Shown here piece by piece: positions 26,634 to 63,093 of a stretch of DNA of 64,000 bases. The position numbers and the translations under genes were made by a program. Origin of the DNA: Lolium rigidum (lineage: Eukaryota > Streptophyta > Magnoliopsida > Poales > Poaceae); the NCBI RefSeq assembly GCF_022539505.1, contig NC_061513.1:181504017-181568016 (forward strand), given 5' to 3'. Position 1 is the stretch's first letter. Every line of letters begins with the position of its first letter. Under the pieces are notes generated by a model. The model saw only the letters and a list, made by a program, of their open reading frames with translations. It did not search any database and was not told the origin of the DNA.

Positions 26634-26643
26634 AGCTATTTTC

Positions 26644-36933: not shown

Positions 36934-37822
36934 CTATTCAAAGTTGAGTTCTGGCGGACTGTCAATTTGACCTTTGATGAAAGCCTCCGGTGTTTCCACT
37001 CGAATAACATCAACATCTACATTATAAGAATCACCTGAGATATAATGCTTGAGTCTTTGTCCATTCACCACTTGCGTGGCATTGCCTTGGAGAGAACTAA
37101 TTTTAATTGCTCCGGAACGATACACCTCCTCAACAACATATGGTCCTTCCCATTTCGAGAGTAATTTCCCTGCAAAGAATCTGAGACGAGACCGATACAA
37201 TAGGACTTTATCCCCAATATTAAACTCTCTTTTGATAATCCTTCTATCATGCCATTTCTTAACTTTCTCTTTAAAGAGTTTAGCATTTTCATAAGCTTCA
37301 CTTCTCCATTCATCTAGAGAACTTAATTGCAGCAACCTCTTATTACCGGCTAGTTTAGGATCTTTATTTAGTTCTCTAACAGCCCAATAAGCTTTGTGCT
37401 CTAGTTCTAAAGGTAAATGACAAGCTTTTCCATAAACCATTTTATAAGGTGACATTCCCATGGGGTTTTTATAAGCGGTTCTATAAGCCCATAGTGCTTC
37501 CTTCAATTTACTAGCCCAATTCTTTCTAGTTTTATTAACAGTCTTTTGCAAGATAGATTTAATCTCTCTATTTGATAGTTCCACTTGCCCACTAGTTTGA
37601 GGATGATAAGCGGAAGCAATTCTATGATTAATACCATATTTAGCAAGAGTTTTTCTAAAACCACCATGAATAAAATGAGAACCTCCATCTGTCATAATAT
37701 ATCTAGGAACTCCAAATCTAGGAAAAATAATGTCTAAAAGCATTCTTAAAGAGGTCTCACCATCAACACTTTTTGTAGGTATGGCTTCCACCCATTTAGT
37801 AACATAATCAACAGCAACAAGT
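36934..37822 (-). pseudogene. Integrase, catalytic core and C-terminal domain (5' part missing)
   Basis: From 37822 on the minus strand the first catalytic Asp lies in AVDYVTKWVEAIP. The second is in IMTDGGSHFIHGGF and the catalytic Glu in TSGQVELSNREIK: a complete DD35E set. A chromodomain-less C-terminal region with GDKVLLYRSRLRFFAGKL and WEGPYVVEEVYRSGAI follows, the usual gypsy C-terminal fold, ending at TGA near 36934. This portion has no stop. The upstream HHCC zinc-binding part is at 62820-62990 on the plus strand. The gag-like codons upstream of 37822 in the same frame are unrelated sequence. Confidence 0.93.
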
Positions 37823-37997
37823 GATGCGGGGTGGCCTTCGGACACCTCCACACCAAGACCAACAAGTCCCCCAAGTGGACCAATGACTCGGGCTCGAGTA
37901 AAAGCGCTACATGATAAGGTGAACTCGCTCCTCACCACCCTTGATCTTGATACCCCTTTGGATGGAATGCTACCTCATGCCGATGTGCTATGTGTCA
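37823..37997 (+). other. Foreign 175-bp contig tail with gag-like coding
   Basis: On the plus strand this reads GPMTRARVKALHDKVNSLL followed by DTPLDGMLPHADVLCV. I recognise this as the N-terminal part of a polyprotein common in other grass Ty3/gypsy elements. It is joined without spacer to the broken integrase and ends at the N-gap. It is either a chimeric contig end or the edge of another insertion. Confidence 0.6.
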
Positions 37998-38097
37998 NNN
38001 NNNNNNNNNNNNNNNNNNNNNNNNNNNNNNNNNNNNNNNNNNNNNNNNNNNNNNNNNNNNNNNNNNNNNNNNNNNNNNNNNNNNNNNNNNNNNNNNN
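37998..38097. other. Assembly gap (100 N)
   Basis: Exactly 100 N, the conventional placeholder for unknown length. ORFs crossing it are meaningless. Confidence 0.99.
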
Positions 38098-41000
38098 TCT
38101 CCTCCTCCATCTCCTTCCGTAGTTGCGTGCTGGCGTTGGTGAAGTCCTTCAGGGACTCATCCAACTTGGCCTCAGCAGCAGCCTGGGCCTCCTTGAGCTC
38201 CCGAGTTCAGCCTGCATAATCTAATCCTTCAGCGCAGCGGAGATGTTCTCCTGAGCGTCCAGGGCCTTGCGGTGCTCCAAGACAAGCTGCTCCTTTTCAG
38301 CTGTAATCCGGAAGAAGAAACGATTAACAAAAGAATCCGGTAGGTTCAAGAGAGGCAAAACAAGCGAAAAAGAAAATAGTACCTTTGAGCGCGGAAACCT
38401 GAGCAGTGAGGTCCTCAAAGGAGGCTTCCGGAAGCACTGCTATGCAAATAACTTATGAGTATAAATTGAAAAAAGCAGCCGGTACAAAAGAAGCCGGAGG
38501 CAGAGAAACGAACCTTGGCATTTGCTGTGGGCCTCGGAGAGGTACCGGTGCTCCCACAGAAGCTCCTCGAAGAATTTCTTCCGGGCGTCCAAGGTGCCCT
38601 GTTCAAGTTACAAGATTCCGGTAAGGCTATGCCGGCATTTTGTTTCAAGCAAAGTTTCGCGCTAAGAACTGCGTTCTCAACCCGAAACTCGGGGACTGGC
38701 TATGCCGGTTTTTTGGTTTCTAAGAGAGTTTCGCGCTAAGAACTGCGTTCTCAATCCGAAACTCGGGGACTGGCTATGCCGGTTTTTTGGTTTCTAAGAG
38801 AGTTTCGCGCTAAGAACTGCGTTCTCAACCCGAAACTCGGGGACTGGTATATAAGCTGGAGGATTGAAAACCGGCAGAAATTTAAAGGAACTTTGAGGTT
38901 TGTGCAACTTACCACCACGTTGCCGCTGGCCTCATGCCATGCGGTGTCGAACTCCTTGACCGCGCGCCTGAGCCGGCTGAGGTGCTGCGCGGTACTCCGC
39001 CGGCCAGAAGGGTTGATCACCGGAAGCTTGTCCTTCCCAAGGCCGCGGGTTGCTTGAGACAAATCCGCCTGATTCCACTTCTCAGCGTAATCAAGCAGAG
39101 GCCCCAGGTTGACCTCGCCGCGGTTAAGCTCAGTGATCCGGCCCAGTTGAGCTGAGGCCTTCTCACTGGCCGCAACGGCGGTGCGGCCGGCGTGCTGTAC
39201 TAGTGACTGCGAGCCGGAAGAGGGGGAGGTCGCTGCTGTGACCACCGCAGCAAGTTGCTGGGCGGTAAACTTGGCGCCTTCCGGAGGAGCTGGCTTGGCG
39301 GCAGCTGGTTTGCCGGCGGGAGCTGCCGGGGGAGTTGGCGCGGGAGCCTCCGGCGTCTCCTTACCCGGAGAAGAGGTTGCCAGCGCGGAAGCTTCCCGCA
39401 CGGTCTTGGAGGGGGAGGCAGAGACCTTCTTCTTCTTCTTCTTCTTGGGGGTCGGGGGAACCGGAGGTTCCGCCCGCTCAGGTTCTTCGGTGCCGGCGCC
39501 GATGTTGCAGGCGCCGGTGTCTTCAGCTTCTGGAGGGGAAGATGAATCCTCCTCCGCGCGGTGGTGAGAAGTTTCAGGGGCCGCGCGCCCTGCACTTGTG
39601 TTGCCTCCCCGAGAGGAGGCAAGAGATTTGTCGGCACTAGATGGTACCGGACTTGCTTGAGGAGGTGGCGAGGTCCTGGCGGCGTCCTCAGATGCTTCCG
39701 GCCTCATGCCCGTGGCACTCCTGGTGAGGCTAAGGGCAGGCCTAAGAAAGAAAAAGGAAAGTAAAGTTAGAAAAAGCAACCGGACAAAGAAAGTCACGAG
39801 AGACAAAAAGAAAGAAAAACCGGAAGCTTACCCGGAAGCAACCAGAATTTGACTCCAGTAGCGCTTCTTGGTGTAGGGCTTGCCGCCACCGTCCTTCTTG
39901 GAGCGCTTGGCGGGGGGAGTTCCGCTAGAGCCGGCCTCAGGGGCCAGAGCTTTGTTCTTTTGCCCCCGAGAGGCTAGGTTGTCCAGGAATTCGTGGCCAA
40001 CCTCGGCCTGCAGTGGTGCAGCGTGCTCCACAACCTGAGGGTTTACGTTGGCTGAGGCAGGATCCACGAGGTAACCATCTATAAAGAAACGGGTGAGTAA
40101 GATACCTCAAGGATAGTGACATCATCATCAGAACCGGAATCATTTGCCGGAAGAGGATTTGGGAGGTTACCAAGGAGCTTAGTGTGCGTCGGACCCATCT
40201 TATGCTTTCCCTTGACGTAGGGGTCGGCGTCACAATCGTCCCGGAAAATCCGGTCGGGAGTAAAAGATGCCGGCTCCTCCTTGGCGATCCGGCGGAAGTT
40301 CTGAGATACAGAAAGAACATGTTAGAACAAAATACTCGTAGTTATACCGGTGAAAGCTTTCCGAAGATCCAGAGGTCTTACTCGCCGCGGAGGAGAATTG
40401 ATGTGGCTGTAAGGGACCAGCCCGTACTTCCCGCTAGGACTCAGCGGGTTTTGGTAAATCTGCTTGGCCTTAAGGACCAAGTTAGTGGAGCTCAACCGGT
40501 GAGTTGTGATCCTAGTCGGGTCCATTGGGCCCGACATTTGGCTGATCTTGTGGGCGCGCCGCTGAAGGGGCAGCACCCGGCGCGCGAGAAAAGCCCGGAC
40601 CAGATCTTCCGCGCAGAGGTTGGTCTCCTCCTTGTTGGTGTCGATGAAACCGGCTATCCGGATGGACTCCTTGTCGTCCTTAGGGTAATGGAGCCAGTTC
40701 TTCATGGAGGGCGGCCCGGGAATATACCGGGAGATTGATGAAATCTTCCGGGCCGCCGTTCCGGACGTAAAAGAAGGTCCTCTGCCAGGTCCGGACAGAG
40801 TCCAGACCGGAGAGTTTGTAAAAGTTGCTCCCGGGACGGGGAAACAAGATGCAACCCCCGCACCGGACAAAGGGTTTGGGGTGTGGAAGTTTTCTATCTT
40901 GGATAGAATTCTTCCGGAGGTAGTAAAAGAAAGAGAAGTTGTCAACACAAGGAGTGATACCGATGTATCCCTCCATGAAAGTGGTGAAGGAAGAAAGGTA

Positions 41001-41475
41001 AAAGATCGAGTTGCCCGGAAGATGATGGGGCTGGAGCTCGTAGAAATTGAGGAAGCGCCGGAAGAAGTCCGACGCTGGAAGGCCAAAGTCGTGCTCAAAA
41101 TGAGCGGCGAAGACCATGTACTCACCCGACTGAGGCTCGGGCTGGCGCTCCTTGCCGGGGATGCGGCACCAAACCTCCTCCGGTATCCTCCGGGAGCGGT
41201 AGAGCCAATCTATCTCCGCCTGGGTCACGTCGGAGCCCATCCAGGCCCCGCGTGTGTAGGAGTCCAAATCTACGCCGGCACCCTGACTTGAGCTGCCGGC
41301 CTCTCCTTGGTTATCGGTAGGCTGAGCAGAGCTACCGGTACCGGCTCTGGGCGAGTTCCGCCTCGAGCCCGTCGGATGCTTGATCCACCGGGATTTCCCC
41401 ACCGGAAGAGGCAGTGGGATCCTCGGTATGGTCGCTGCTACCGGCGGATTCAGTTAGGTACTCCTCGGAAGACAT
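38098..41475 (-). pseudogene. Antisense multi-exon gene with Transposase_28-type domain and coiled coil
   Basis: The likely start ATG at 41475 gives MSSEEYLTESAGSSD; a frame change near 41400 leads to the main domain (41402-40680). There MVFAAHFEHDFGLPASDFF, RFLNFYELQPHHLPGNSI and FYLSSFTTFMEGYIGITPC match the domain I know as Transposase_28 in grass elements. After a frame change near 40690 the reading continues to about 40390. Further exons follow near 40290-40080 and 40067-39838, then a Pro/Ala/Lys-rich exon with a seven-Lys run (39745-38905), and short helical exons near 38600-38515 and 38445-38380, consistent with a coiled coil. Intron-like spacers separate them. The 3' end is in the gap. 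Function is unknown; the domain name implies no demonstrated activity. Confidence 0.68.
38654..38850. repeat. 74-bp tandem repeat, about 2.7 copies
   Basis: Units start at 38654, 38728 and 38802, each opening gtttcgcgctaagaactgcg. The first two are complete and differ from each other at very few positions; the third stops at about 38850. They lie in an intron of the antisense gene. Confidence 0.92.
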
Positions 41476-41939
41476 ACCGGTATAAAGTTCCAAGATCTAC
41501 CTAGAAACAGTTTTCCCCGAACCTAGCTTCTCGTGAAGATCTACGAGTAAGAGAAAAAGCAAAAGAAAAGGAAGGGTAAATACACTACCGGCCCAAAAGT
41601 AATGCAAAGAGGAAGGAAAAAGAAAGTGAGTTCGCGAGGCTAACCTGGGGCGGCGGAGAACGACGAAGACGACGGCCGCCGGAGTTGGACGAGCTTGCGG
41701 ACGATGGCGGTGAACATAGAAGAAGAAGAAGAGGAAGTGCCGTGAGGCGCTCGGAGCAGGAGAGGCGAAGTTCTGCGGTGAATCTCTGCGGAGCGGAGCC
41801 CTGCGGAGCTTCTTCGGAAGTTCATCGGAGAGCAAGGCTTCGGCGGCGAGCGGCGGCGAAGAGAGCGCAAAGGGCGGAAGCTCTGAGTGCTCTGGAACTT
41901 GGCAAATGCGGGGAAGACGATGATGTGGAACCGCCGCCC

Positions 41940-41951
41940 CCTTAAATAGGG
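41940..41951 (-). promoter_or_regulatory. TATA-like element for the antisense gene
   Basis: On the minus strand, ccctatttaaggg lies about 470 bp upstream of the start codon at 41475. It is followed by a leader with a plausible intron (donor CAG|GTTAGC near 41643, acceptor TTTCTAG near 41504). This suggests the antisense gene has its own promoter. Inference from sequence only. Confidence 0.4.
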
Positions 41952-42383
41952 AGAGAGGTTCGTGGGCCGGCAACCGCTGGGCCGTGACGCTTCGCCTCGT
42001 GGGCCGGCACGTGGCGCAGAGATACACGCGTGAAAAATAGGATGCCACAGGGAGGCCACACGGATCCGGAACGGCAGTGAGGATCCGGTGCGGCAAATTA
42101 AATGCAAGCGCAGAAGCCGAAGGGAAGTGACCCCTGACACTGTGGCGCCAGGCACAGTGCGCATGTCTCTGAGAGGCACTGTGTCCGAGATATTCTCGAC
42201 TTCGCCGAGGAGAGTTTAATGACAAAGATGCCGGAAAAGATCGGTATGGTTAGAAGAGTTCGGCAGAGATGCCGGAAGGTTTGAACTGGTTGCCGGAAGG
42301 TTTAAACCGGTACGTTGAGTAATGGGAACCTGGCATGGTCCGTCGGATAGGATCCGCCGGACTATACCAGCTTCGGGGACTAA

Positions 42384-43111
42384 TGTTGGGGGGATGACCC
42401 CTGGTATGCCAAAGGCATGCCGAGCTTGCCTAGTTTAGGCTGATAAGGTACTAGTTTAAAGATTATTCCGGACAAAAGAGTTAAGCTGATGGCTAAGTGA
42501 GCTTATGCCGGTATCCCAGGAGGGGTATACCGGAATAGGCTAAGAAGGTACCGGATTACCGGTACAGGCTACACTGTAGCACGTCGGCAAGCTGGTCAAA
42601 GATTCTCTCAAGAGCTAGAGGACAAAGATGAGTGAAGCACTTCAGCTTTAATCGAACCTCTGAGGCCAAAGCAGAAGATGACGTAAAAGGTACCGGGGGA
42701 TGTCACCGTTCCTGATTAAAGGTCTACCGGTGTCATCAGCTGCCAAAGAGGCTTTGTAAAGTAGTTTGTCTAGTCAAAGATGCCATTAGGGTTTCCTAGG
42801 GTTTCTTCCCCTGTAAGCCACCCTCTCCCCTATATAAGGAGAGGGGGCACACCCTTGCGCGGGGACGACGATTACCTTGTACTGAAAACCTGTAACCTTG
42901 TTCGACCATGGAATAGAGAGATCCAAAGTTGAGCTAGTTGTTCTGTTCTTCTTCTTCAACCTCTGGCCAAGGCCAAGTTTATCAAGAGAGCATCCGGTAT
43001 TCCATCCGGAATCCATCCCCATATAACCAAAACCCTCCCCCGAATCCTCTAGCGCACATTCGGCCCCAACTTAAGCCATCCCATGGCATCTGTCTGTTCA
43101 CCACGACGACA
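42384..43111 (+). repeat. 3' LTR of the Tat-like element (728 bp)
   Basis: Starts tgttggggggatgacccctg and ends cacgacgaca. A TATA box (tatataagga, 42831-42840) sits in a pyrimidine/purine-rich promoter context. The end is followed by ggggt (43112-43116), the presumed right target duplication, whose partner is lost. Confidence 0.75.
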
Positions 43112-43853
43112 GGGGTTCGGAAAAGTTTGGGATTTTTCCGGTGGAAGACCGAGAAGGTTCTAGAATGTTCCGGAGGGTCCAGCAGTGGGCCCACAACCCT
43201 AGGAGGGGCCACATGGGCCGAGGGGGTGCCACCCAGCTCTAATGGGCCAGGCACACAATCCCCTCAAGGCCCAGGCTGGCCACCCCTTTAGGGTTTCCCC
43301 AAAACCCTAGGGGGTAGACTTGGGAGGGAAGAAATCCCCCCCCCCTCTTTTGGTCGCCACCCTAGACTTGAGGAGGGGCCAAGGCAAACCCTGGCCGGCC
43401 TCCCCCTATATAAAAAGGGGAGGGGGCAGGGTGCGCAGCCCTCCCTCACTCTCCTACCCAGGTCGCCCCTCTCCTCCTCCACCATACCTCCCGCTCCGGC
43501 TTAGGCGAAGCCCTGCAGGAATTCTCCCCCACCACCACCACACCGTCGTACTGCTGGGATTCCGAGGAGATCTACCACACTTCCGCTGCCCGCTGGAACA
43601 GGGAGAGGAAGGACTTCATCGACACCGTACGTGCGACCGAGTACGGAAGTGCTGCTGGATTGCAGCACCAGAACGATTGACTACATTAACCATGAGATAT
43701 GATCTCGTAAGGCTTTGGATATCCGTGGGTTAGTCTCTCATCTCTCTCGTTGCTCCGATCTTCATAGATTAGATCTTGGCTTTTCCTATATTGGATCTTG
43801 GATTTGTTCTTCTTCTCGGTAGAATTTTTGTTTTCTATGCAACGAACCCATCA
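43112..43853 (+). repeat. Partial LTR of another retrotransposon
   Basis: LTR-like sequence with a strong TATA box (tatataaaaa, 43407-43416) in a C-rich context. It ends in a typical 'ttttctatgcaacgaaccca' terminus just before sequence of a different element resumes. Its 5' part is missing where the Tat-like element lies, so the latter probably inserted into it. Confidence 0.55.
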
Positions 43854-45894
43854 GTTGGATCCCGACACATTTGTTTTGGAGAAAGACCCGCTCCGTTTTA
43901 ATTGCATAGAACACTCTAGTTTTCGCTGTTATTGTTCTGTGAGTGTTCTAGTTTTCTAGTATTGCGTTTAGATCTTGTTCTTTCACTTGAATTTTGTTCA
44001 GAACTCGTTAGTATTATTTATTTATGTATGATTAGCTCTCTGGTCCATATTGTATTTCATCTCTGAGAGTTATTTCAAATAAGTTGATTGGTGTTGGATA
44101 CGAGTAAAATATTTCATGACTATAGTGATGCAAAAGGAAGCTTGTCTAGACTGTGGCATGTCATATTGGATGTTATTTTAATCATATGCTTAGTTATTGT
44201 TGTAGCATGACTTTTTTCAAATGGTTGAGAGTGCATAATGTGTCATTGAAAGAATCATGTGTTGTTTCCATCATAAAAGCATAATATTATCGTATTCTCC
44301 TTTGATGCTTTATTGGGTTGACTTGGCACATGCTTATACCATGTTATGACTATAACCAGTCAACTAAAGCCTCTATGATCATTTAGTTTTTGACTTGTAA
44401 TATCACTTTATGGTTTGATTGATAATGTTTTGTCGTTATGCATGATTATGGCCATTATTGCTCTCTTATTTGACCGCTCCCAGTCTTTTGCTAGCATTCG
44501 CCTACGCTGAGTATGAACTCTACTCGTGCATCCAACCACCAATAACCAAAGTTTGCCAATTGTTTCCACCATATCTACCTAGTAGCATTATTGCTATTCC
44601 AATTAATCCATCATGTTTTATTTATCTTCCAAATTAAATTTTGGCATGAGAAAATTAGTCAGTAATGCTCTCACGAACTTGATGGCACATTTACTTTCTT
44701 GCACTTAATAAATTTTATCATTGTGCCTATCTTATGAAGTTTATATGGTTGCAAATTGCAATTTTGGAGTTAGTATAACCATGCTTTCATGGGCAACACT
44801 TTCGATATTGCACTTATATTTAGTTGATCTCATGTTCTTTTGTTTATGGTTGCCTAGCGGTAAGAAATAAAATGGAAATTGTAAGTCCATGGAGTTTGTA
44901 TATGAGTTAGAGAAAATCCTGGGCTGCTAATCTAAGTCATGCATCATTCATGGTGGAAATTTATAGCTAAACCATAGTGAGCATTCTATGAAGCATTTGC
45001 ATTAAAAAGCTATACCCATAGTAAATAAAAAGATTGCTGAGATGATCATTGTCTGTTTGTCTTGTCATTTTGGCATGAGATTGCTCCTGCAAGAGTACCT
45101 CCATATCATCGGGCAAGAGGTACCCGGTTGGCGGTTCTCAATGATACATGTATACTTACAATGACAAGAACTTATTTGGGACCTAAGTTGAGTAGCGTGA
45201 GGTTTAGGTACTCGCATTCAAGGGGCATGAGATTTTCAACTTGTGATTTGCAAGCACATAGCTCATTTTTGACTCACATTAACTTTAACCATTCAAGATG
45301 CTTATGATAGGGGCAATGAGAGCTCAAAGCTAATAACTACCATACTTTTTCGAAGGTTTATAAAACTTGTTTATCTTCCTTACTCTGCAAAGAGTCTTTC
45401 TTTTACCTTTATGTTGAGTCTTCATCTTCTACTTTATGCACCAATTAAGACAATATAGTTGTCATTCTTAGTGCAATGTGCATAGTTCCAAAATTATTAT
45501 TGATTGATTCATGATTGTGCCATTGTTTGCTCTTAAACTACTTGTACCTAGTCACCCTTTGAACTTTAAAGGTGTCCTAGCATTTATGTTTTTCTACTCC
45601 ATAAAGGACATGTTGAGTACCACTTTGTTATGTTTGCTCTATGCTCATAAACAAACAGTTACTTTCAATGCACTATTATTCATGATCCTTTGTTCGAGTT
45701 ACTCTTCATATTATAACATAGTTGCTAAGTTATATTGAATTATATCTATCATGCCTATGTTAGAGTACTTAGATCTCAGCTCACAATGCTTTACAATGCT
45801 TAATTAAGATTGTTTTGACTGCATGTCACATCAAAAGTTATTTTGTTATCACTTACCTACTCGAGGACGAGCAGGAGTTAAGCTTGGGGATACT
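43854..45894 (+). repeat. Internal non-coding region of a non-autonomous LTR element (fragment)
   Basis: Closely follows 28415-30469 over its whole length (about 2.04 against 2.06 kb), including the tract 'ctactcgaggacgagcagg' and the polypurine tract before the LTR. No long ORF. The 5' part of this element, including the ORF region, is absent here. Confidence 0.85.
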
Positions 45895-47461
45895 TGATAC
45901 GTCTTAAACGTATCTATAATTTTTGATGCTCCATGTTTGTTTTACACCAATTTACATATGTTTTGCTTACACTTCGATGCACTTTTATATGATTTCTGGC
46001 ACTAACCTATTAACAAGATGGCACAGTGTTAGTTCCCTGTTTTCCGATGTTTTTGTAATTCAGAAAAGTTGTACAGGAAATATTCTTGGAATTGGACGAA
46101 ACAAAAGCCGAAGTCAATAGTTTACCATAACGAAGACAAAGTTCGGAGGGGGGACGAAGTGGCGCCACATGACGTCCAGATCACCCCATGGAACGGCCTG
46201 GGTGTGAACCGCGCCTAGAGGTGGTTTGGGCCCCCGTGCGGCCACCGACCTCGCCTCATCAGCCTATTTATTCACGACCTCTGGAAAACCCTGGATGCTC
46301 GAGCCTCCATCCACGAAAAGTTCCGTCGCGGCCGCCATCGCAGAACCCATCTCCGGGGTTCTGAAGCTCTTCCGGGCACCCTGCCGTAGGGGGAAATCAT
46401 CGCCATGCCCGCCTTCGTAGTGATGCGTGAGTAGTTCATCCCTGGATTATGGGTCCATAGCAGTACCTAGATGGTTGTCTTATCCAATTTGTGCCTCATG
46501 TTTAGATCTTGTGAGCTGCCCTACATGATCAAGATCATCCTTATGTAATCTTACATGTTGTGTTTGCTGGGATCCGATGAATATTGTATACTATGTTGAG
46601 GTCGATTATATATCATGTCATATGTTATTTGTGATCTTGCATGCTCTCCGTTGCTAGTAGATACTCTAGCCAAATAGATGCTTGTGACTCCAAGAGGGGG
46701 TATTTATGCTCGATAGAAGGTTCATGCATCTAGTAATCTGGGAGAGTGACAGTAACTTCTAAGATTGTAGATGTGTTGTTGCTACTAGGGAGAAAACAAC
46801 AATGTTTTATCCAAGGGTAATTCTATTGTTTACTTTACACACATTGCTTAACGCGATAATCTATTGCTTGCAACTTAATACTGAAAGGGGTTTGGACGAT
46901 AACCGGAAGGTGGATTATTAGTCATAGACGCAGTTGGATTACGGTCTATGTATTATGTTATAATGCCCAATCAAATCTCATAGTAATCATCTTGTCATGT
47001 ATGGTCGATATTCTGTCAATTTCCCAGCTGTAATTTGTTCACCCAACATGCTATTTATCTTTATGGAGAGACACCTCTAGTGAACTGTGGACCCGATCTT
47101 TTCTTTTACACTGATACAATCATCCTATTCTGTTTACTTACTGCAATTTCTGTTCTTTTTAATTACTGCAAACATCTCTTTCCACTCGATACGTCTAACC
47201 CTTTGTGTTCCGCAAACCGGTGAGATTGACAACCTCACCGTAAGTTGGGGCAAAGTACTTTGGTTGTGTTGTGTGCAGGTTCCACGTTGTTGCTGACGCC
47301 GGTAGTGTGCCCAGCCACTAGTCAGCTAGCAACACCTTCAGAAGTCACGCCTTTCTCCTACTGGTCGATTAAACCTTGGTTTCGTACTGAGGGAAAACTT
47401 GCTGCTGTGCTCATCACACCTTCCTCTTGGGGTTTCCCAACCGCTTCCACAACAACACTCA
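45895..47461 (+). repeat. LTR of the fragmentary non-autonomous element (about 1567 bp)
   Basis: Begins tgatacgtcttaaacgtatc right after the polypurine tract, so by position it is a 3' LTR. The first ~250 bp resemble the LTRs at 25220 and 30470; the later part is different. It ends near 'cacaacaacactca'. The 19 bases at 47470-47488, tctggagccatcaccggag, resemble a degraded tRNA-Asp primer site, which would instead suit a 5' LTR. Confidence 0.7.
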
Positions 47462-48193: not shown

Positions 48194-48208
48194 AGCTCAA
48201 ATTATTTT
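48194..48208. repeat. SINE target-site duplication, left
   Basis: agctcaaattatttt, exact partner at 48376-48390. Confidence 0.9.
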
Positions 48209-48375: not shown

Positions 48376-48390
48376 AGCTCAAATTATTTT
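48376..48390. repeat. SINE target-site duplication, right
   Basis: agctcaaattatttt, exact partner at 48194-48208. Confidence 0.9.
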
Positions 48391-49516: not shown

Positions 49517-50761
49517 CTATCTAAATCGGCTGCTCATGAACCCCTCCTCTCCCCCTCCTCCTCCTCCTAGGTTTTCGGCTGCAGCCGGGAAGGAGAAGGC
49601 AGGCATCATGTTGTTGTAGCTCAGCGGCGCCATGTTCACCATGGCATTAGCCCCGTAGTTCCGGCGGTCTAGGGTTTGCAGTTCCCTGATCTGGGACTTG
49701 AGGAAGCGGAGGTAGTTGGCGGCCTCGTCCAGCATGGATGCCGTGTCCATCTTGGCGCCCCCCGGGACCAGCTTCTGCAGCACGCGCAGCCGCTCGCTGA
49801 TTCGCTCCCGGCGCTGCCGCGCCGCCACCGTCTGCGGGTCGGAGGAGATGCGCACGTTGCGCCTGCTCGGCCGCTCTCCGGCGTCCTCCTCCGCGTCTCC
49901 GAGGCTCACGGGCCGCATCGCCGCCGCGCGGTAGATCATCTCCTTCACCTGCGCCAGCGCCTCCGTGTCCGGCTCGTACCGGCCGGGGACGTCGTCGCAG
50001 CCGCTCCTGCCGTCGAAGCTGATGCTCGACGAGGTGCTGCTCAGGGACGGCTTCGTGCGCTTGGCGGACGGCGCGGCGGTGCTGAACGCGATCTGGATAC
50101 CGCCGCCATTTCCCGTGTTGCCTGACGCGAGGAGGCTGCACAGAGGGTTCTCCATCTCCTGGGCCGCGTGCACGTCCGCGGCCGTGCATGGCGGCTCGGC
50201 GGCTCTCCGCTTTCTGCTCGACCGACGCTGCTGTCTTCTGACACCACTGCCGTTGCCTTCCTCCCACTGGCTTTTCGTCGTGGCCGCGGTCGGCGCATCC
50301 GCTGCGTCGTCGTTGTTGCCGTAGTCGACGACGACGCCGCCACGGTCAGTGAAGGAAGGTGCTGCAGGTACAGTAGCCAACGTGACAGCTCGTGCTGCTG
50401 GTACGAGGTCGTAGTCCGGAGGCATCACCATCGCGCCCTGATGGCGATGGTGATGCTGCTGTCGCTGCGCGACAGCCCCGTCAACGTCCGCGTAGGCAGG
50501 CGTGGCGGGGCCCATCGAGCTGTACGCGAGGGTGGCCGGCTCGACGCCTCCGGCCACCGCCTTGCCGCCTCCGCACGGCACCTGGATGCCCTGCAGCTCC
50601 ATGATGGCCGCCGCGAGTGCCTCGTCCAGCACCAGCCTCTCCAGCACCGTCATGCCGCTCCCGTCGACGACGTTAACGACATCACCTGCCGCAGCAGCAG
50701 TGTCGCCGCCGTTCCACGCGCTCTCGCTTAAGATCATGTCGTTGCAGAAGCCATGATCCAT
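49517..50761 (-). CDS. bHLH transcription factor, bHLH87/HECATE-like
   Basis: A single-exon coding region of 414 codons, ATG at 50761 and TAG at 49519-49517, no frameshift. A GTG four codons upstream in frame is not a plant start. The bHLH domain is at residues about 308-360: a basic region with [20 protein letters not shown] (the H-E-R pattern is Q-E-R here, as in HECATE-type factors), a loop [10 protein letters not shown] and helix 2 [20 protein letters not shown]. The preceding [18 protein letters not shown] is characteristic of bHLH87-like proteins. A basic cluster ([12 protein letters not shown], about 175-186) may be a nuclear signal. The rest is low-complexity Ala/Gly/His-rich sequence. 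By homology it dimerises in the nucleus and regulates development; its target genes cannot be told. It is the only intact host gene in the window. If the contig is flipped, its true strand is plus. Confidence 0.93.
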
Positions 50762-50773
50762 CACGCCCGGCAC

Positions 50774-50978: not shown

Positions 50979-50980
50979 CC

Positions 50981-51270: not shown

Positions 51271-51283
51271 CTCTTATAAAGAG
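51271..51283 (-). promoter_or_regulatory. TATA-like element of the bHLH gene
   Basis: ctctttataagag on the minus strand, about 165 bp upstream of uORF1 and followed by a CT-rich leader. It is a palindrome-like site, so it could serve either strand, but only the minus strand has a gene at the right distance. Confidence 0.45.
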
Positions 51284-52228: not shown

Positions 52229-52355
52229 CTCCCTCCGTCACACCAAACATGTCGAAGGTTTGTTAAAATTTGGATGTAACTATTACTAAATATTTAGTGT
52301 CTAGATACGTCCAAATTTTAATAAACCTTGGACATGTTTCATGGGATGGAGGAAG
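52229..52355. mobile_element. Stowaway-type MITE (127 bp)
   Basis: Inverted termini ctccctccgtcacaccaaac and, from the other end, cttcctccatcccatgaaac. They continue into long inverted arms (about 55 bp each side, including ggtttgttaaaatttgga). TA dinucleotides at 52227-52228 and 52356-52357 form the target duplication. This is the standard build of Tc1/mariner-derived Stowaway MITEs. It lies about 0.95 kb upstream of the bHLH TATA-like element. Confidence 0.9.
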
Positions 52356-52357
52356 TA

Positions 52358-55300
52358 TTATACATGTTGGCTATAGAGCTACATATAACCAGCATTTGGA
52401 TCTACTATTGAAGTTTGCTCCAAACATGCATGTGTGCATACATGCGTGCGTGTAGTGCATGCATTACTTATAGCCAGCCTAAAAATGACCTTGCTGTAGC
52501 AACTGTCACAAGTGCAAAAAGATTTTCACTTTTACTGGCAGCTTTAACTTTGGGCACTTTCATGCATGCATTCATGTATTCTAACTGCAGCCTAGTGTAT
52601 GTGGAGTGTATATGTAGGATTTGCTAGTTAGGTAGGCATGCATGATGCAGCTCTTGGAGCGGAGGATGTGATAGTGAAACAGTACGCTGTCAAAACTGGA
52701 GCTATATATGGCTCCTATCAGGGTAGCTAGCTGCCCGCTGGGCAGAGAGCTCAGCGTGAGTACAATCGTACGCAGTCACCAGCGACCGTAAATATGAGCG
52801 GTGCAGAACAGATGTGCGGGAGACACTGACGGCTCAGATCGCCCGTAGCGATATGCTATATAGCTAAGCTAGTGACTAGACGCGCGCTGGCTTTGTGCAA
52901 ATGTCAGGGGTGGCGCTGGCCACACGCATCATCGAGAGCTTTCCATGATGTCATTTCGCTACAGGAGTTACTACTGTGGAGTGTGGAGAAAATCCGTTTT
53001 TGAGCAATCGGCCCGCTGTGTCTCGGTTATTTATTTCATTATTGTATACACGATTTTTATTTGTCTGGAAAAGTGGGTAACATTGTCAATCGTTTTCATG
53101 CTCCTTTTAAATTGATAATGACACAATTTAGAAAATTTCAAATTGTTTTCCTCTTAAAAGTTTAATTATGAATGGCAATTGGGATATACATATGTCACAA
53201 CGCTAAAATCGCTAGAACCTCTCAAGGGCAAGAGAAATATAACCCCTAAGAACTCCTTGCTTTCTCGCTGGTGCGGTCCAGACTTGACCTATTTTTTTTT
53301 TTAATATTAGTAAGGCTCTACTAGTTAGCAAAAGTTTTTTTAGGATCATCTAACATCATCTGAATTAAGAGAATTGGTGGTTCATCATACCAAACAATCG
53401 TAAATGTTTGCCTTGCTAAGCTAGCTATAAATGTGCGGCCCTATTTTGCTCACACAACAACATCGTCTCGATCTCCTCCATGGAGTCAAAGTTCACGATC
53501 ACCTGGCTGCAACATAGGGATAATGCGATCGTAACATAACCGCATGAAACCACAAGGGAAAAAAAGCTAACTTAGCCCCAAAAGACACCAAAGGTACACT
53601 AATAACCCACAAGTACAAACAAAAGTTTATAATTGATTTCTAAAATTTTATAACGATAAGAAGAAAAATGCCCGCCAAGGCGCTAGGCTCAAGCCCTTAC
53701 TCACCTGGATGTTGTGAACTTGATTAGTGTGGTTCAAGAAACCCGCAATTCTGGAAACTTCCACTTGATTTTCCTTACTAGCAAAAACTATAAGCTAATG
53801 TGAAGTATTGTTCCAAATTGAAGATAAGTGTGTCATTTGTCCAACATAATTAATAACTTGTTTCCACGTATTCAAAACTTTAATCCAAATTTTAATTGAT
53901 ATTTTGAAGTTGTTTTCAAACGGTTCATACTTGTAAGGTGCAATATAAACTAAAATGTAGATAGATTTGCAACTTAAAGGGTGAGGCCTCAAGTAATGTT
54001 GGGAATTAATGCATATTTTCCGCATCTGGAAGCATCTTCATCTCGTAATCTATCATTGTCTAGTGAAGTTTTATCCTGAATGCCAAATCAAAAAAATGAG
54101 TGGATGGAAATCTAGGAGATGATTCTTTGAAAAGGAAACACACCAAGCTAGAAGCCATTAGCCATGATCGAATCTCGTTTGCTAGCTAGCTTTATTATTG
54201 CTAGTTTGGACCAGATAATTGCCTCCACTATACTCTAGCAAGAACTCTCATATATTTTTTCCTTTGAATATATATTCGAGCCTCCACTAATAATCTATGT
54301 ACAAGGCGAATGAATGCACGATGAGGACTAGCTAAATCTAGATTTGCCTAAGATGATCATCCTCTTGACTACCATATATATATGTACCTCACGTGTGATT
54401 CATTATTATAGTAAATTAATTAAAGAAATGGCTAATGGAGTGGTATTAGACAAGGAGGAGAGGACAACCTTGTGTGCACATCATTGCTTTCCACTGATTG
54501 ATCGAGTGAGATAACAGGAAAGCAACAACAGAGGAAGAGGCAGCTGCTGGTTTGGAATGTCCTGAACAGTGTGGCAAGCAAGCAACAAGACACCTAATCG
54601 TCCATCCAGAATTCCATGTAGGACGTGACAATCTTCCATCCTCTAGCTGCTGTCATTTTCCTAGAGATGGCAGAGCAGTAAACCAAGCAGAAACTTGCAA
54701 GAGTGAGATTTGTAGCCGCATATGTACTAGAGAAACAAACCTCTGCCGCGTTTTGTATGTATATACCGAAGCCTGTACGTGGAGACTTGTGCAGTGGGAC
54801 GCCAGATAAAATCAAGAACAGTTATAAAACAGACAAACATGTGTGTGAGTGCGCATGTGTGCAGCAAGGTGCCAAGCCAAGGACTAGGTGCAGTTGCCGT
54901 TAAACTTAATTAAAGTCACCCTATATAGTCTATCCATATCTGCATATTTTAATGGTGAACTGTATACATAATAATCATTTGACGTGGCTCTTCGGTAGCT
55001 CGACACGGGGCCTCTTTAGCTGTTAATTTAGCTGCTTGATTTTTCTTACCAACTCGACAGCGATCCATCCACGTCCCCTTCAACGGATCGATCATACATG
55101 GATGGACCAGTGTCAACTTGCAGCATGCAAACAGGCCTCATAATCTCATACGATCCACGGGAAGCGGTCCCCCGTCATATGAACATTGACCCAAGTACAA
55201 ATGCTCCCACAATAATGTGGATAAGTTCACAGAATTGAATGTGTACATATCTCAGCTAATGTTAGCATCCAAAACTAGATCATTTTTCTTCGATAGACTT

Positions 55301-56639
55301 GTTCCTTATAGAATAATTGAGTTTTATATCCCCCTTCCTGGCCGACCTTATTGTGACGATAAATGGCAGATTGAACTCAACAAGATAGAATATTTGGAAC
55401 ATGGATTTGGTTTGTTTCCTGCATAACTCTCTTGTCACCTTCTCCCGCCTATGGCACTACTATCACCGCCCTCGTCCACTTGTGGTGGAGAGCCATTCTC
55501 GGTCTAGGTTTCGTAATTTAGCCACCAAAGTACCTCATTGCAATCAATTGCAATCATTTGTGATATCATAAGAAAGATTGCAAGGCAAAACAAGAGCTTT
55601 TACCGTAATGGGAAACCTCTAATCCATCCGGATCAATTGATGGCGCCGCTATATGTGTAGCTCCCTTCATTGGAGGCATCATAGAGGAGCCCCTCCTTTT
55701 GCAAGTTGGCGAACATTGTCCGAAGACCATTAGTTTGGTTGTTATGTGGCGCATTTGCATCTCCTTGAGGGGTGCTTCTGTCGCAATGCTAACAATGGTG
55801 AGTGGTGAGTCCTTCTATTCTACGAGCGCGGAGCTGCATTTCATCGTCAGGTTTCATGTTTATGGCATTTTTTGGATGACGCATGCATGGTGACTTTATT
55901 GTGGGATTTTTTTTTGCATTGCTTGCTAGTTCTTGCACGGACGGAGTTGCTAACATGTTGAGAGGTGATGACGATGATGTTATGGTGGTGCCAACGGCTT
56001 GCTTAGTGTGTGTTTCAGTTTATTTTTTTCTTGTTCTTTCATAGATCGATATTGGTTAGCTGACACTAATACACAACGATTATGTACATGGGTCATTGAT
56101 ATCGCCCATACATTTTTATTTTCCACCTTTGCTGATGTTGGAACCATGTGCTTTAGGATGTGGCCTTCATACTGCTCTGTACTAGTTTGGGATGATTCGG
56201 TGTTTGCTCCCGCTTGCTTGTTCAAAAAAGATAAACTGTTTTTGATAAAGGGTACTTTATTTAAAAAAAAATTTGCTCGACCTGGGTCTAGCTTAGACTA
56301 CATCGTCTAACATGCATGACTCGACATCACAAATTATATATGATCTGACAAGTGTAAAGATCGTGGTGTACTGCTCTAAAATGTGGGGTTGTACTCAAAA
56401 TAAAATTGGAAGTTGGAGACAAGACTACAAAAGAACGGAATTTGACTCCTAGTAGCTCCTAAGTACTCCGTACCTTGTTGCATCGGAATATAGTATCATT
56501 GTCCCTATCCCTTATAAAATTCTTAAGAGAGATTATCTAGGAGAACAAGCAATAGCACATAGGTACTGTTAGTGAGGAAAGATGAGCCCTAGCTACCCTC
56601 TCTTGTCGTTCTTGCAAGTCTACAATTTCTACGGTAGTT
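52358..56639. other. Intergenic sequence without recognised genes
   Basis: About 4.3 kb of AT-rich DNA. Open stretches are short (at most about 100 codons) and match nothing I recognise. Near 56240-56275 a 'gataaagggtactttattta' stretch followed by an A-run resembles a retroposon 3' end, but I cannot delimit an element. Confidence 0.4.
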
Positions 56640-57170
56640 TTTATAAGGGACGGGACGATACAAACAGTCGTTGACCGACCGTTTGCGTTCGCGTGGTCGA
56701 AAAATGTGCCTGCACCATACTCCCGCGGGGCGAGGCATAGTGACCGAGCCGTTCGTGGAGACGCAAACGCGGCCCAAATATGCGGCACGTTTGCGTCTCC
56801 GCGGATGCTGCGCCATCGTGTCGAGCGTCCTCCTTTTCTTATCTGGTCTCGCATGTCAGGGACAGTGAAATCGACCGTGCGGATTTGCTTCATTTTCATC
56901 TGTGCGACGCCACCACCCCGCCTCCGCCGCTCCGCCGCACCGCCATAGTACACGTCGTCTGCTCGGGCCACACCGCGCCAAAGAACATGATCTGAGTCGG
57001 GGTAGGTTCTAGGGTGCACTTGTCAAGTGTTTGGGGGCCAAACATCTACCGGTTGCGCCGCCCGGCCTTGCCGCCCACGACCCTGTTCACTCAATTGCAC
57101 CGGTAGATTTCTTACTCATTTTTGGGCGCTATTGTGGGCAACCATTGGTCCGCAGTTGCTACCCACGCAG

Positions 57171-57633
57171 ATGGTCTTGTGCAAGATGTTGGACAAGTTC
57201 CGCGATGAGGTCATTGACTCCTCTTCTGATGAAGAGTCCGATCAAATGATGCAGACCATGGCTACTGTCGCAGCCTCCATCCTCCACGAGCACAATGCTA
57301 GCCAGATGCCGGTGTACCGGGGCTATGTGAAGGTCCGCTCAAAAAACCTGTCGCGCAACAGAGTGGAAGGGCACCTCCGACTCCACAAGGACTACTTCCA
57401 CCGCAACAATCCGGTGTTCCTAGAAAAACATGTTCTGACGCCGGTACAGGATGTCAAGGGACCTGTTCATGGTCATTCTATGGGGCGGCAGAGACTACGA
57501 CCCTACTTCAATGCAGGCCCGATACAACAGGTGCGCTAGGTTTCACCTCGTACCAAAAATGTTCCGTAGCTATTCACATGCTATCATATGGAATGGTTGC
57601 CGATATATTCGACGAGTATCTTCGAATGGGTGA
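57171..57633 (+). pseudogene. Second Harbinger transposase, N-terminal part
   Basis: The ATG at 57171 (or 57186) opens KMLDKFRDEVIDSSSDEES, the acidic leader usual for the family. RNRVEGHLRLHKDYFHRNNP follows, a hallmark of grass Harbinger transposases. A frame change near 57440 leads to MSRDLFMVILWGGRDYDP. Further decay follows, up to the sequence at 57601-57638, which reads DIFDEYLRMGES in another frame. The protein then continues at 32860 on the minus strand. Confidence 0.85.
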
Positions 57634-57638
57634 GAGCA
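57634..57638. repeat. Athila-like element target duplication GAGCA
   Basis: Directly before the LTR start (tgatacgtcc, 57639). Identical to the minus-strand reading of 32861-32865. Confidence 0.88.
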
Positions 57639-59145
57639 TGATACGTCCAATTTGCATCACTATTTTATATCATGATTTGCTGTTATTCATTGATATATTT
57701 CATATTTGGAGATAATACTTATGTTATTTCATCTATTTTGCATGTTTCATGATTATTGGAGGATCGCTCACCGGAGCCAGTATTCTGCTGGAAAAAGCAC
57801 CGTCAGAATGCAATATTTCGGAAGATCAACAGTTGACGGAAATTATATGAAAAATCCTATTTTTCCAGAAGACGAAGGGAGCCGGAAGGGGAGCCGAGGG
57901 GACCCGAGGTGGGCCCACCTCATAGGCCGGCGCGGCCCAAGGCCCGGCCGCGCCGCCCGTGAGGAGGGGGCCCACAGCCCCTCTCGCCTCCTTTTCTTCG
58001 CGTACGCCTTTGTCCCGAAAACCTAAGCTCCAGGGGTACGTCGCGAAGAGTCACGGCCGCCTCGCGGGGCGGAGAACACCAGAGAGAAAGAGCTCTCCGG
58101 CAGGCTGAGATCCGCCGGGGAAATTCCCTCCCGGAGGGGAAATCGACGCCATCGTCACCGTCATCGAGCTGGACATCATCTCCATCACCATCACCATCAT
58201 CTTCATCATCATCACCGCCGTCTCCACCGCTGCACCTCGTCACCGCTGTAACAATTTGGGTTTGATCTTGATTGTTTGATAGGGGAAACTCTCCCGGTGT
58301 TGATTTCTACTTGTTATTGATGCTATTGAGTGAAACCGTTGAACCAAGGTTTATGTTCAGATTGTTATTCATCATCATATCACCTCTGATCATGTTCCAT
58401 ATGATGTCTCGTGAGTAGTTCGTTTAGTTCTTGAGGACATGGGTGAAGTCTAAATGTTAGTAGTGAAGTATGGTTGAGTAATATTCAATGTTATGATATT
58501 TAAGTTGTGGTGTTATTCTTCTTGTGGTGTCGTGTGAACGTCGACTACACGACACTTCACCTTTATGGGTCTAGGGGAATGCATCTTGTACTCGTTTGCC
58601 AATTGCGGGGTTGCCGGAGTGACAGAAACCTGAGCCCCCGTTGGTATATCGATGCAGGAGGGATAGCAGGATCTCGGAGTTTAAGGTTGTGGTTAGATTT
58701 ATCTTAATTACTTTCTTGTAGTTGCGGATGCTTGCAAGGGGTATAATCACAAGTATGTATTAGTCCTAGGAAGGGCGGTACATTAGCATAGGTTCACCCA
58801 CACAACACTTATCAAAATAATGAAGATTAATTAGCCGTATGTAGCGAAAGCACTAGACTAAAATCCCGTGTGTCCTCGAGAACGTTTGGTCATTATAAGT
58901 AAACAAAGCGGCTTGTCCTTTGTGCTAAAAAGGATTGGGCCACTCGCTGCAATTATTACTCTCGCACTTTACTTACTCGTACTTTATTCATCTGTTACAT
59001 CAAAACCCCCTGAATACTTGTCTGTGAGCATTTACAGTGAATCCTTCACCGAAACTGCTTGTCAACACCTTCTGCTCCTCATTGGGATCGACATTCTTGC
59101 TTATCGAAGATACTACGATACACCCCCTATACTTGTGGGTCATCA
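57639..59145 (+). repeat. 5' LTR of the Athila-like element (1507 bp)
   Basis: Starts tgatacgtccaatttgcatc, ends gtgggtcatca. Partner of 32866-34378. Confidence 0.94.
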
Positions 59146-59156
59146 AGACTATTTTC

Positions 59157-59175
59157 TGGCGCCGTTGCCGGGGAG
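59157..59175 (+). other. Primer-binding site, tRNA-Asp type
   Basis: tggcgccgttgccggggag, 11 bp after the LTR; it agrees with the complement of the tRNA-Asp 3' end. Confidence 0.9.
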
Positions 59176-59260
59176 TGAAGCGCTATTGGTAAGTGGAATT
59201 GGTAAGGGAAATTTCTACTGTTTGTGCTGATTTTATTTCTGCCTGCAGCTATAATTCAGT

Positions 59261-60080
59261 ATGGAGAGATCTTCTCTTGAGTGTTTATTTGGGAAATCTA
59301 CTACTACTGCAAAGGTAGTGGATGAGGCGCCAGGTAAGGAAGAAATACCATACAAAATACCTATGAAAATTATTGAACGTGTAGTGGATAACCGTTATAC
59401 AGGGGATGGAACTGTCCACCCTGGAGATCATTTACTTGTTCTTACATGAATTATGCGGTTTATTCAAGTGTGCAGGTATTGCTATGGATGAAGTGAGGAA
59501 GAAACTATTCTCTGTATCGCTGTCTGGTAAAGCGGCGCATTGGTATAAATTACTGGATAATGGGGATTCTCTTGAATGGAATGATATTGTGCCCCGGTTT
59601 TATTCTAAGTTCTATCCTCCAAGTGAGATTCATAAAGATCGGAATCGCATATATAATTTTTGGCCTCATGAAGGAGAAAGTATTGCCCAAGCGTGGGGAG
59701 ATTGAAGTCTTTAATGCTCAAATGCCCCATTCATGAGCTTCCTGGTAATATTATTATTGATAATTTCTATGCAAGACTTTCTTTTCAAGACAAGACCTTG
59801 CTGGATACTTCTTGTTCTGGATCATTTACACGCAACAAGGAAGAGTTTAAAAGGAACCGTCTTAATCGGATCCAAGAAAATACTGAAGGATGGGAGAACG
59901 ACAAGGATGGAGAATCAGGTATAAATTATGATTATAAATGCATTGAAGCTTTTATGGATACTGATAAATTTCGTAATATGAGTGCTACTTATGGTCTTGA
60001 TTCTCAAGTTGCTGCAAATCTTTATAAAGCTTTTGCTTCTCATTATGAATTGCCTAAGAAGAACTTTGATAAGTATCATG
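59261..60080 (+). pseudogene. gag region, frameshifted
   Basis: The ATG at 59261 begins MERSSLECLFGKSTTTAKVV. After frame changes near 59430 and 59700 the capsid-like part reads ELCGLFKCAGIAMDEVRKKL, VSLSGKAAHWYKLLDNGDSL and RFYSKFYPPSEIHKDRNRI, which resemble the retrotransposon gag core of this lineage. HELPGNIIIDNFYARLSFQD follows. No CCHC zinc knuckle is seen, as is usual for many Athila copies. Confidence 0.82.
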
Positions 60081-60754
60081 AACCGTACAAAGATAAAATT
60101 GATTCATCTATAAATAAATGTGTTGTAATTGAAACTGTTGATCATGTTATTCCTGAAGGTTATATTGAAAAAACTCCTTTCCCTGCTAAAATGAAGGAGT
60201 ACTCTGTTATAAATAGTGCGGTTCATAAAAGTGAAAAGAAACCTATAGAACCTGAAGAACAAATAAAAGTTGAACCTGCTGTTGCAATTGTTAAAGATCT
60301 TGTGACTGAAAATGTAGAAGATGGTCATATTATTTTCTGTGAAGATGCTTCTAATATTGTTTCGCATCCTAATAAGTCCAGGAAAGCTAGTGTTCCTATG
60401 CTATCTGTTAGAATTGGTGATCTTTGTTATTATGGTTTATGTGATATTGGTGCAAGTATTAGTGCTATTCCTTATGAGCTTTACACGAAGATTATGCACG
60501 AAATTGGTTCTTGTGAACTTGAAGATATTGATGTGGTTATTCGGTTGGCTAATAGAGAAACTATCTCTCCAATTGGTATTGTTCGAGATGTGGAAGTTCT
60601 ATGTGGTAAGATTAAATATCCTGCTGACTTTTTGGTACTTGGTTCTGCTGCTAGTAAATATTGTCCTATCATTTTTGGTAGACCTTTTCTAAATACTTGT
60701 GGAGCTATTATAGATTGCAAGAAAGAGAAAATTTTGACTAAATTTTCTCGGTGA
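60081..60754 (+). pseudogene. Aspartic protease region
   Basis: Continuous with the gag frame from 59693. The protease core has VPMLSVRIGDLCYYGLCDIG with the DIGAS active-site variant (DSG/DTG in retroviruses, D[IL]GAS in this lineage). It continues with VIRLANRETISPIGIVRDVE, a PADFLVLGSA region and IIFGRPFLNTCGAII, the usual final strand and helix. The stop at 60752-60754 is probably a frameshift product. Confidence 0.87.
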
Positions 60755-62759
60755 ATCTTATGAGTTTAACTTCTCTAAATTTACCAAAACTCCTTATAAA
60801 ATTGATTCGCCTAATAGTGATTTTAAGGTTGAACAAGTGTGCATCTATTGCTCTTGCTCCTAGTAATCCTTTGCAGCAACATTTGGAGAATAGTGAGAGT
60901 GAAGTTTTTAGGGAAGAAAGAGATGAGCTTGATGAAATTTTCCTTCGTCAACCTATTCTTAAGCATGATTTACCGGTGGAAGATCCGGGTACAACACCAC
61001 CACCAAAGGAAGATCCTGTCTTTGATTTAAAACCATTGCCCGATAATCTTAAATATGCTCATATTGATGATAAGAAAATATATCCTGTTATTATTAGTTC
61101 TAAGCTTTCAGAGTTTGAAGAAGAAAGGTTATTGGAAATACTGAAGAAACACCGTGGTGCTATTGGCTACACTCTTGGTGACTTGAAGGGGATTTCTCCC
61201 TCTATTTGCCAACACGCCATTAATATGGAAGACGATGCGAAGCCTGTTGTTGAACCTTAGCGTCGCCTAATTCCTAAGATGAAGGATGTGGTAAGAAATG
61301 AGGTATTAAGACTCCTTGAAGCTGGTATTATATATCCTATTGCTGATAGTAGATGGGTTAGTCCTGTGCATTGTGTTCCTAAGAAAGGAGGAATGACTCG
61401 TTGTGCCTAATGATAATGATGAGCTTATACCTCAAAGAGTAGTTGTAGGGTATAGAATGTGCATTGATTATCGAAAAGTTAATAAGGTTACTAAGAAAGA
61501 TCATTACCCTTTGCCTTTTATTGATCAAATGTTAGAAAGGTTATCTAAAAATACTCATTTTTGCTTTCTTGATGGTTATTCCGGGTTTTCACAAATTGCT
61601 CTTAAAACTAAAGATCAAGAGAAAACCACTTTCACTTGTCCCTATGGAACTTATGCTTATAGGCGTATGCCTTTTGGTTTATGTAATGCTCCTGCTACCT
61701 TTCAAAGATGCATGTCTGCTATTTTTCATGGCTTTTGTGAGAGTATTGTAGAGGTATTCATGGACGATTTTTCCGTCTATGGAAATTCTTTTGATAATTG
61801 CTTGCGGAACCTTGATAAAGTTTTGCAGAGATGTGAAGAAACTAACCTTGTTCTTAATTGGGAGAAATGCCACTTTATGGTTAATTAAGGAATTGTATTG
61901 GGACATAAAATTTCCGAGAGAGGTATTGAAGTTGATATAGCTAAAGTTGAAGCCATTGAGAAGATGCCCTATCCTAGGGATGTTAAAGGTATTCGTAGTG
62001 TTCTTGGTCATGCTGGGTTTTATAGGAGGTTTATTAAAGATTTCTCCAAGATTTCAAAGCCTCTTACTAATCTTCTTCAAAAAGATGTACCTTTTGTTTT
62101 TTATGATGATTGTAAGGAAGCTTTTGAAACTCTAAAGAAAGCCTTAACAACTGCCCCTATAGTTGAACCTCCTGATTGGAACTTACCATTTGAAATTATG
62201 TGTGATGCTAGTGATTTTGCTGTAGGCGCTGTTCTTGGACAGCGAGTAGATAAAAAACTGAATGTTATTCATTATGCTAGTAAAACTCTTGATGCTGCTC
62301 AAAGAAATTATGCTACTACTGAAAAAGAATTGTTAGCTGTAGTCTTTGCTTGTGATAAGTTTAGATCTTATATTGTTGATTCAAATTACGATTCATACTG
62401 ATCATGCTGCAATTAGATACCTTATGACAAAGAAAGATGCTAAGCCGAGGCTTATTAGATGGGTACTTCTTTTGCAAGAATTTGATTTACATATTGTAGA
62501 TAGGAAAGGTGCTGATAATCCTGTCGCTGATAATTTGTCTAGATTGGAAAATATTGCTTATGATCCTGTTCCTGTTAATGATAGTTTTCCAAATGAGCAA
62601 TTGGCTGTAATAAAGGTGAGCTCGCGAGACAGTCCTTGGTATGCTGATTATGCTAACTTTATTGTTTCCAAGTACTTGCCTCCAACCTTTTCAGCTCAGC
62701 AAAGGAGGAAATTCTTTTATGACTTGAGGCATTATTTTTGGGATGACCCACACTTATAA
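60755..62759 (+). pseudogene. Reverse transcriptase and RNase H region
   Basis: A linker (60835-61257) is followed by a TAG at 61258. PIADSRWVSPVHCVPKKGG near 61350 and, after a frameshift near 61400, RMCIDYRKVNKVTKKDHYPL follow. FLDGYSGFSQIAL and the catalytic FMDDFSVYG near 61765 come next. A TAA at 61886 interrupts the frame before the RNase H domain, which has [35 protein letters not shown] and, after a frameshift near 62390, [15 protein letters not shown] sequence. LRYFW-like residues lead to a stop at 62757. The active-site residues are kept; the copy is dead because of the frame lesions. Confidence 0.92.
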
Positions 62760-63093
62760 AAAGAAGGAGTGGATGGTATTCTGCGAAGATGTGTTCCCGA
62801 ATATGAACAACAAGAGATATTGAGTAAATGTCATGGTAGTGCTTATGGAGGACATCACGCCGGAGATAGAACCGCACAAAAGGTTCTACAATCGGGTTTT
62901 TATTGGCCAACTCTCTTCAAAGATGCAAGGAAGTTTATTTTATCTTGTGATGAATGTCAAAGGGTTGGTAATATCTCCAGACGCAATGAAATGCCTATGA
63001 ATTATACTCTTGTTATTGAACCATTCGATTGTTGGGGATTTGACTTCATGGGACCTTTTCCCTCTTCAGAAGGTAACACTCATATACTTGTTG
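62760..63093 (+). pseudogene. Integrase, N-terminal zinc-binding part (truncated)
   Basis: Contains the HHCC zinc-binding module: HGSAYGGHHAGDRTAQKV, then LSCDECQRVGN. The start of the catalytic core follows (CWGFDFMGPFPSSEGNTH). Sequence belonging to the element stops at 63093, one short step before the first catalytic Asp. The continuation is at 37822 on the minus strand. Confidence 0.92.

Follow-up and report, generated by a model that had tools for sequence, protein, structure and literature searches.

Two transposon halves on opposite strands point to a wrongly oriented contig in the Lolium rigidum reference assembly

Why should the two halves of one retrotransposon, and of the gene into which it inserted, lie on opposite strands of the same scaffold? 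The question is raised by a 64,000-nucleotide stretch of Lolium rigidum (C6:181504017-181568016; NC_061513.1 of assembly GCF_022539505.1), referred to here as the window, which was compared together with the surrounding 273 kb; negative positions and those above 64000 lie outside the window. Two scaffold gaps separate a middle contig from a left and a right one, and a Ty3/gypsy (Athila-like) long terminal repeat (LTR) retrotransposon, the outer element, is divided between the middle contig, which has the 5' half on the plus strand, and the left contig, which has the 3' half on the minus strand. A first-pass annotation had read this arrangement as a contig placed in the wrong orientation, and our analysis arrives at the same best reading: three transposons nested in one another almost certainly look torn apart through a backwards contig. 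We estimate a probability of roughly 0.93 that the middle contig is wrongly oriented by a scaffolding artefact, rather than by a biological inversion. The contigs and gaps are arranged as follows:

37998-38097, no strand: scaffold gap of 100 N, at the left end of the misplaced contig
38098-63136, minus: misplaced contig of 25,039 bp, the strand being its probable true orientation relative to the left contig
63137-63236, no strand: scaffold gap of 100 N, at the right end of the misplaced contig
63237-64000, plus: start of the right contig, which continues to 97382 outside the window and probably belongs before the left contig

The outer element and its target duplication comprise the following parts:

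57634-57638, plus: target duplication GAGCA, upstream copy, adjoining the 5' LTR
57639-59145, plus: 5' LTR of the outer Ty3/gypsy (Athila-like) element, TGATAC..TCATCA
59146-63091, plus: 5' internal part, with open reading frames (ORFs) for reverse transcriptase (RT; 61397-61888) and RNase H (61889-62401 and 62343-62756), and an integrase zinc-binding domain in the ORF at 62760-63101
34379-37821, minus: 3' internal part, starting within the integrase core (rve)
32866-34378, minus: 3' LTR
32861-32865, minus: target duplication GAGCA, downstream copy, adjoining the 3' LTR when read in element orientation

Long TG..CA LTRs, a 5-bp target duplication and the order RT-RNase H-integrase are traits of Athila-type elements, and reversal of the middle contig brings all of them together. 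The two LTRs, described earlier as near-identical and on opposite strands, are indeed so, matching at 97.8% over their whole length, and GAGCA stands next to each outer LTR end where it had been reported. The 5' LTR is followed by a sequence that we take to be a tRNA-Asp primer site. RT, RNase H and the integrase zinc-binding domain all fall in the plus half. The minus half, in the other contig, opens partway through the integrase core, at position 21 or 27 of the 102 in the Pfam profile, depending on which piece is scanned. Other copies of the element place both breaks at one point: in copy L012, on C2, the match to the plus half extends to 1561 and that to the minus half sets in at 1554, and the halves adjoin likewise in all six copies examined (L012 and L051-L055), the plus-half alignment being three bases longer in L052 and L055. 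Four of the six match on through the 325 bases tested downstream of the break; L051 (at about 1071) and L052 (at about 581) cease to match 63-69 bases downstream of the window copy's break, and differing sequence follows.

The sequence outside the two LTRs provides a second line of evidence, in the form of an interrupted Harbinger-type transposase gene:

57006-57638, plus: N-terminal part of the transposase (Plant_tran), degenerate; it flanks the outer element on the upstream side, and 102 of 103 transposases match it
31891-32865, minus: C-terminal part of the transposase, Plant_tran E-values 3.4e-41 and 9.5e-22; matched by 103 of 103 transposases

On the minus strand of 32047-32693, two pieces match the Pfam domain Plant_tran (PF04827) at these E-values, and a DDE_Tnp_4 match on the same downstream flank reaches 15.1 bits, below the cut-off of 24.8. 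The ORF of the upstream flank alone has no Pfam match, its assignment resting on homology to the N-terminal part of PIF/Harbinger transposases. A search with the two flanks joined as one query returned 1,436 related proteins, of which 120 were listed (among those with an organism name, plants including Lolium, and one rust fungus); the 103 of at least 290 residues were then compared with the flanks as separate pieces of DNA. A joined query favours proteins that have both parts and leaves the point at which the parts meet unset. Both flanks were matched by 102 of the 103 proteins, and in 96 of these 102 they meet at the same residue, while the remaining six do not fit. The overlap of the flanks, printed as -0.7, amounts to 1.67 residues when both end residues are counted, or 5 bases, the target duplication. 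The outer element therefore sits in one transposase gene, as the earlier description of the flanks as two parts of a single Harbinger transposase had it. Adjoining this gene, at 25211-31890, is an LTR-like pair (25211-26633 and 30461-31890, 92.5% alike) without matching 5-bp flanks.

What lies between the broken integrase and the two gaps proved to be a third transposon:

63087-63091, plus: target duplication CTTGT of the nested LTR, first copy
63092-63136, plus: first 45 bp of the nested LTR in outer-element orientation, cut by the contig end
37822-37997, minus: last 176 bp of the nested LTR in outer-element orientation, cut by the contig end
37817-37821, minus: target duplication CTTGT, second copy

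The nested LTR starts, at 63092-63136, with TGATGAGG, and ends, at 37997-37822 on the minus strand, with GCATCA. In all four copies fetched (L056-L059) the two contig-end pieces delimit 0.95-1.01 kb when measured between their outer ends; in L057 (352-1360) the 5' piece is 100% and the 3' piece 98.9% alike. The alignments are bounded by TG and CA, overrunning by two bases in L056, and do not extend into the adjoining bases of the outer element. The nested repeat is abundant, since all 40 matches scored, of 2,414 candidates, align with the 175-base query end to end at 96-100%, and it is missing at the integrase position in all six other copies of the outer element. With both LTR ends and a matching target duplication in hand, we read these pieces as a second LTR insertion that interrupts the integrase, both contigs stopping inside it. 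The missing middle would then lie in the gap and measure about 0.8 kb if the insertion is a solo LTR, or more if it is a full element.

These pieces also alter the boundaries first proposed. That the halves of the element lie on opposite strands and are both broken in the integrase was borne out, as was the presence of leftover sequence (45 and 176 bp, first given as 44-175 bp) between the breakpoints and the gaps; the leftovers, though, are the ends of the second, ~1.0-kb LTR rather than outer-element sequence, and the outer element itself accordingly breaks off at 63091 and continues from 37821, in place of 63093 and 37822. Likewise, a flip does restore the retrotransposon and the transposase with a target duplication, and the unit to flip is the whole contig, 38098-63136, instead of 37823-63093. 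Reversal of this contig restores continuity on independent criteria, namely GAGCA, CTTGT, the transposase gene and the integrase position, and both discordant junctions coincide with 100-N gaps.

Three other interpretations were set aside. An ordinary unmerged overlap of two contig ends was ruled out, as the ends have just 8 bases in common, five from the target duplication and three by chance. A hAT-type DNA transposon with an 8-bp duplication was ruled out because the insert ends, TG..CA, match the ends of the ~1.0-kb LTR in four of four copies. A second split element, at 109395-110412 and 130163-131184, was dropped, its would-be inner stretches being 75% homologous to each other and hence hardly the two halves of one element. 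Each of these two places (L013-L030 region) holds an LTR of ~1.0 kb; the two LTRs are related but lie on different contigs, and both have CTAAC on the outer side, an unexplained coincidence.

We propose that a Ty3/gypsy (Athila-like) retrotransposon entered a Harbinger-type transposase gene, duplicating GAGCA, and that a high-copy LTR element or solo LTR later entered its integrase gene, duplicating CTTGT. At a grass substitution rate of 1.3e-8 per site and year, the 1.53% divergence between the outer LTRs would date the first insertion to about 0.6 million years ago. Both contigs would have stopped within the second LTR, presumably as the assembler halted at the repeat, and the 25-kb contig would then have been turned the wrong way round during scaffolding, and probably misordered with respect to its neighbours.

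The suspicion about contig order comes from one long near-identical match in the 273 kb, in which -13699 to 9050 aligns with 74639-97382 at 99.13% over 22,788 columns. It opens on base 1 of the left contig and closes on the final base of the right one (positions 1-22750 of the former against 11403-34146 of the latter, which is 34,146 bases long), with 116 substitutions (98 of them transitions) and 82 gap letters. Its share of the window is:

1-9050, plus: part of the left contig matching the right contig end (from the first 22.75 kb, -13699 to 9050, against 74639-97382, 99.1%)

An overlap of this suffix-prefix form indicates that the right contig should precede the left one, and because the end of the right contig duplicates the start of the left, we consider it probable that the order is wrong as well as the orientation. 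The overlap itself is most likely an uncollapsed allele. The likely local layout would run from the right contig to the left contig, the missing middle of the nested LTR and the reversed middle contig; with the right contig probably to the left of the left contig, flipping the middle contig in place would not fully mend the layout.

The match could instead be a true segmental duplication, a variant compatible with a reversed middle contig, in which the order is otherwise right. Assemblers do halt at repeat ends, and the match is free of differences over about 7 kb of its central part, while one stretch near its end differs by 2.8%. The match nevertheless reaches both contig ends, and the assembly has a high share of duplicated BUSCOs, which a later paper, in the part available, reads as unpurged alleles (PMC12376112); we regard a segmental duplication as unlikely.

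Several observations besides this one weigh against a misoriented contig. The orientation follows from sequence logic alone. The first 528 bp of the middle contig, at the end starting at 38098, match nothing else in the surrounding 273 kb, leaving that end unpaired with any neighbour. Whereas the 3' piece of the nested LTR is 97.7-100% alike in L056, L058 and L059, the 5' piece is just 75.6-80% alike in these three, a low similarity that we take to mean that the nested LTR family is a mosaic. ALLHiC, which was used for this assembly, is rated in the available part of the HiC-Hiker paper as roughly on a par with 3D-DNA, ahead of it in local layout but behind it in anchoring and in global order (PMC7672694).

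The pairing of the outer LTRs is itself moderately supported. Among 29 LTRs (the window's two and 27 others of the 40 places listed, 11 being left out), the nearest relative of the upstream LTR is the downstream one, at 1.53%; for the downstream LTR, by contrast, L004 (1.39%) and L003 (1.52%) are slightly nearer than its partner. The window pair has no private site in common; the best pairs share five, and L005 and L007, two LTRs 7.5 kb apart, share one. A tree places the window LTRs as sisters at 92/71. LTR similarity is consistent with partnership and speaks weakly for it. Identical 5-mers flank four of the 27 other LTRs (L042, L043, L045 and L046), consistent with solo LTRs and with a duplication of 5 bp in this family.

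In a real inversion of ~25 kb, which might have arisen when two oppositely oriented copies of the high-copy nested LTR element recombined, the breakpoints would lie in this LTR family within the gaps; such an inversion may be heterozygous, and would then account for the contig breaks as well as for the allelic overlap. Both breakpoints do fall within a high-copy LTR, a type of repeat able to mediate inversions, and the gaps could hide full copies. On the other side, neither junction exists as continuous sequence, both being gaps where an inversion should show breakpoints in assembled sequence; no nested LTR is seen where the middle contig begins (528 bp) or where the right contig begins (564 bp), places at which an inversion mediated by it might leave a copy, though the gaps could hide it; and the overlap of the right contig with the start of the left one argues against the right contig as the true right neighbour. 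We consider an inversion, heterozygous or otherwise, very improbable. That the halves derive from different insertions and merely resemble partners is hardly credible: the outer LTR family is abundant (all 40 matches scored, of 6,383 candidates, at 96-100%, 38 over the whole query and the window's own two included) and the downstream LTR has two slightly closer relatives and no private site in common with the upstream one, but such an origin needs chance matches of the 5-bp duplication, the host-gene residue (96 of 102) and the integrase position (six of six), as well as a chance pairing of the nested LTR ends with matching CTTGT.

The misplaced contig carries a gene with a helix-loop-helix domain (PF00010) at 49517-50773 on the minus strand. 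An allele of the contig was sought through this bHLH ORF, which gave 13 matches in the genome: one full, itself, and 12 short, at 72-81%. The partial matches include three pairs, on C6, C5 and C2, whose two members have equal or almost equal scores and occupy opposite strands of a single scaffold, a pattern that unpurged alleles could produce. Near the contig end, 38625-38847 consists of a 74-bp unit in three tandem copies. The start of the right contig, 63237-63614, matches 174908-175287 inverted at 96.9%, and the latter ends 10 bp from the end of another contig, so that two contig ends lie within the same repeat.

The assembly, as described in the available part of its paper (PMC9664059), comprises 2.44 Gb in 1,764 scaffolds with an N50 of 361.79 Mb, built from Nanopore reads with Flye, purge_dups and ALLHiC, followed by manual curation in JuiceBox. 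Duplicated BUSCOs amount to 70.4% (Viridiplantae) and 64.8% (Poales), which the authors there attribute to common plant gene duplication (PMC9664059), whereas a later paper, in the portion consulted, names the assembly as an example of allelic false duplication (PMC12376112). A literature search, confined largely to listings of papers, found no published report of this particular assembly error. The case holds little biological novelty, its value being practical, for correcting the reference: it pins an orientation error, and probably an order error too, beside a bHLH-type gene, and local synteny, inversion and structural-variant calls are consequently untrustworthy here. More generally, the orientation of contigs on either side of a gap can be read from nested target duplications in the sequence alone, an approach applicable to all gaps of a repeat-rich genome.

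Compared with known systems, the outer element resembles Ty3/gypsy elements of the Athila type, a label taken from the first-pass annotation, in its LTRs, 5-bp duplication, domain order and primer site, and is unusual only because the assembly and a nested LTR interrupt it. Its host gene shows homology along both parts to PIF/Harbinger (Plant_tran, PF04827) proteins of Lolium, wheat, barley and Brachypodium, and differs from such genes in being degenerate, with stops and frame changes, and split by a retrotransposon. As a layout error, the case resembles the orientation errors treated in the consulted part of the HiC-Hiker paper, which finds orientation harder for shorter contigs: a short contig between gaps points in the wrong direction, deduced here from nested target duplications instead of Hi-C data (PMC7672694). 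The overlap, with two near-identical copies in a nominally haploid scaffold, is like the false duplication by unpurged alleles that the later paper, as far as its available text goes, describes in Lolium assemblies, this same one included; unlike those cases, the present one also indicates a wrong contig order (PMC12376112).

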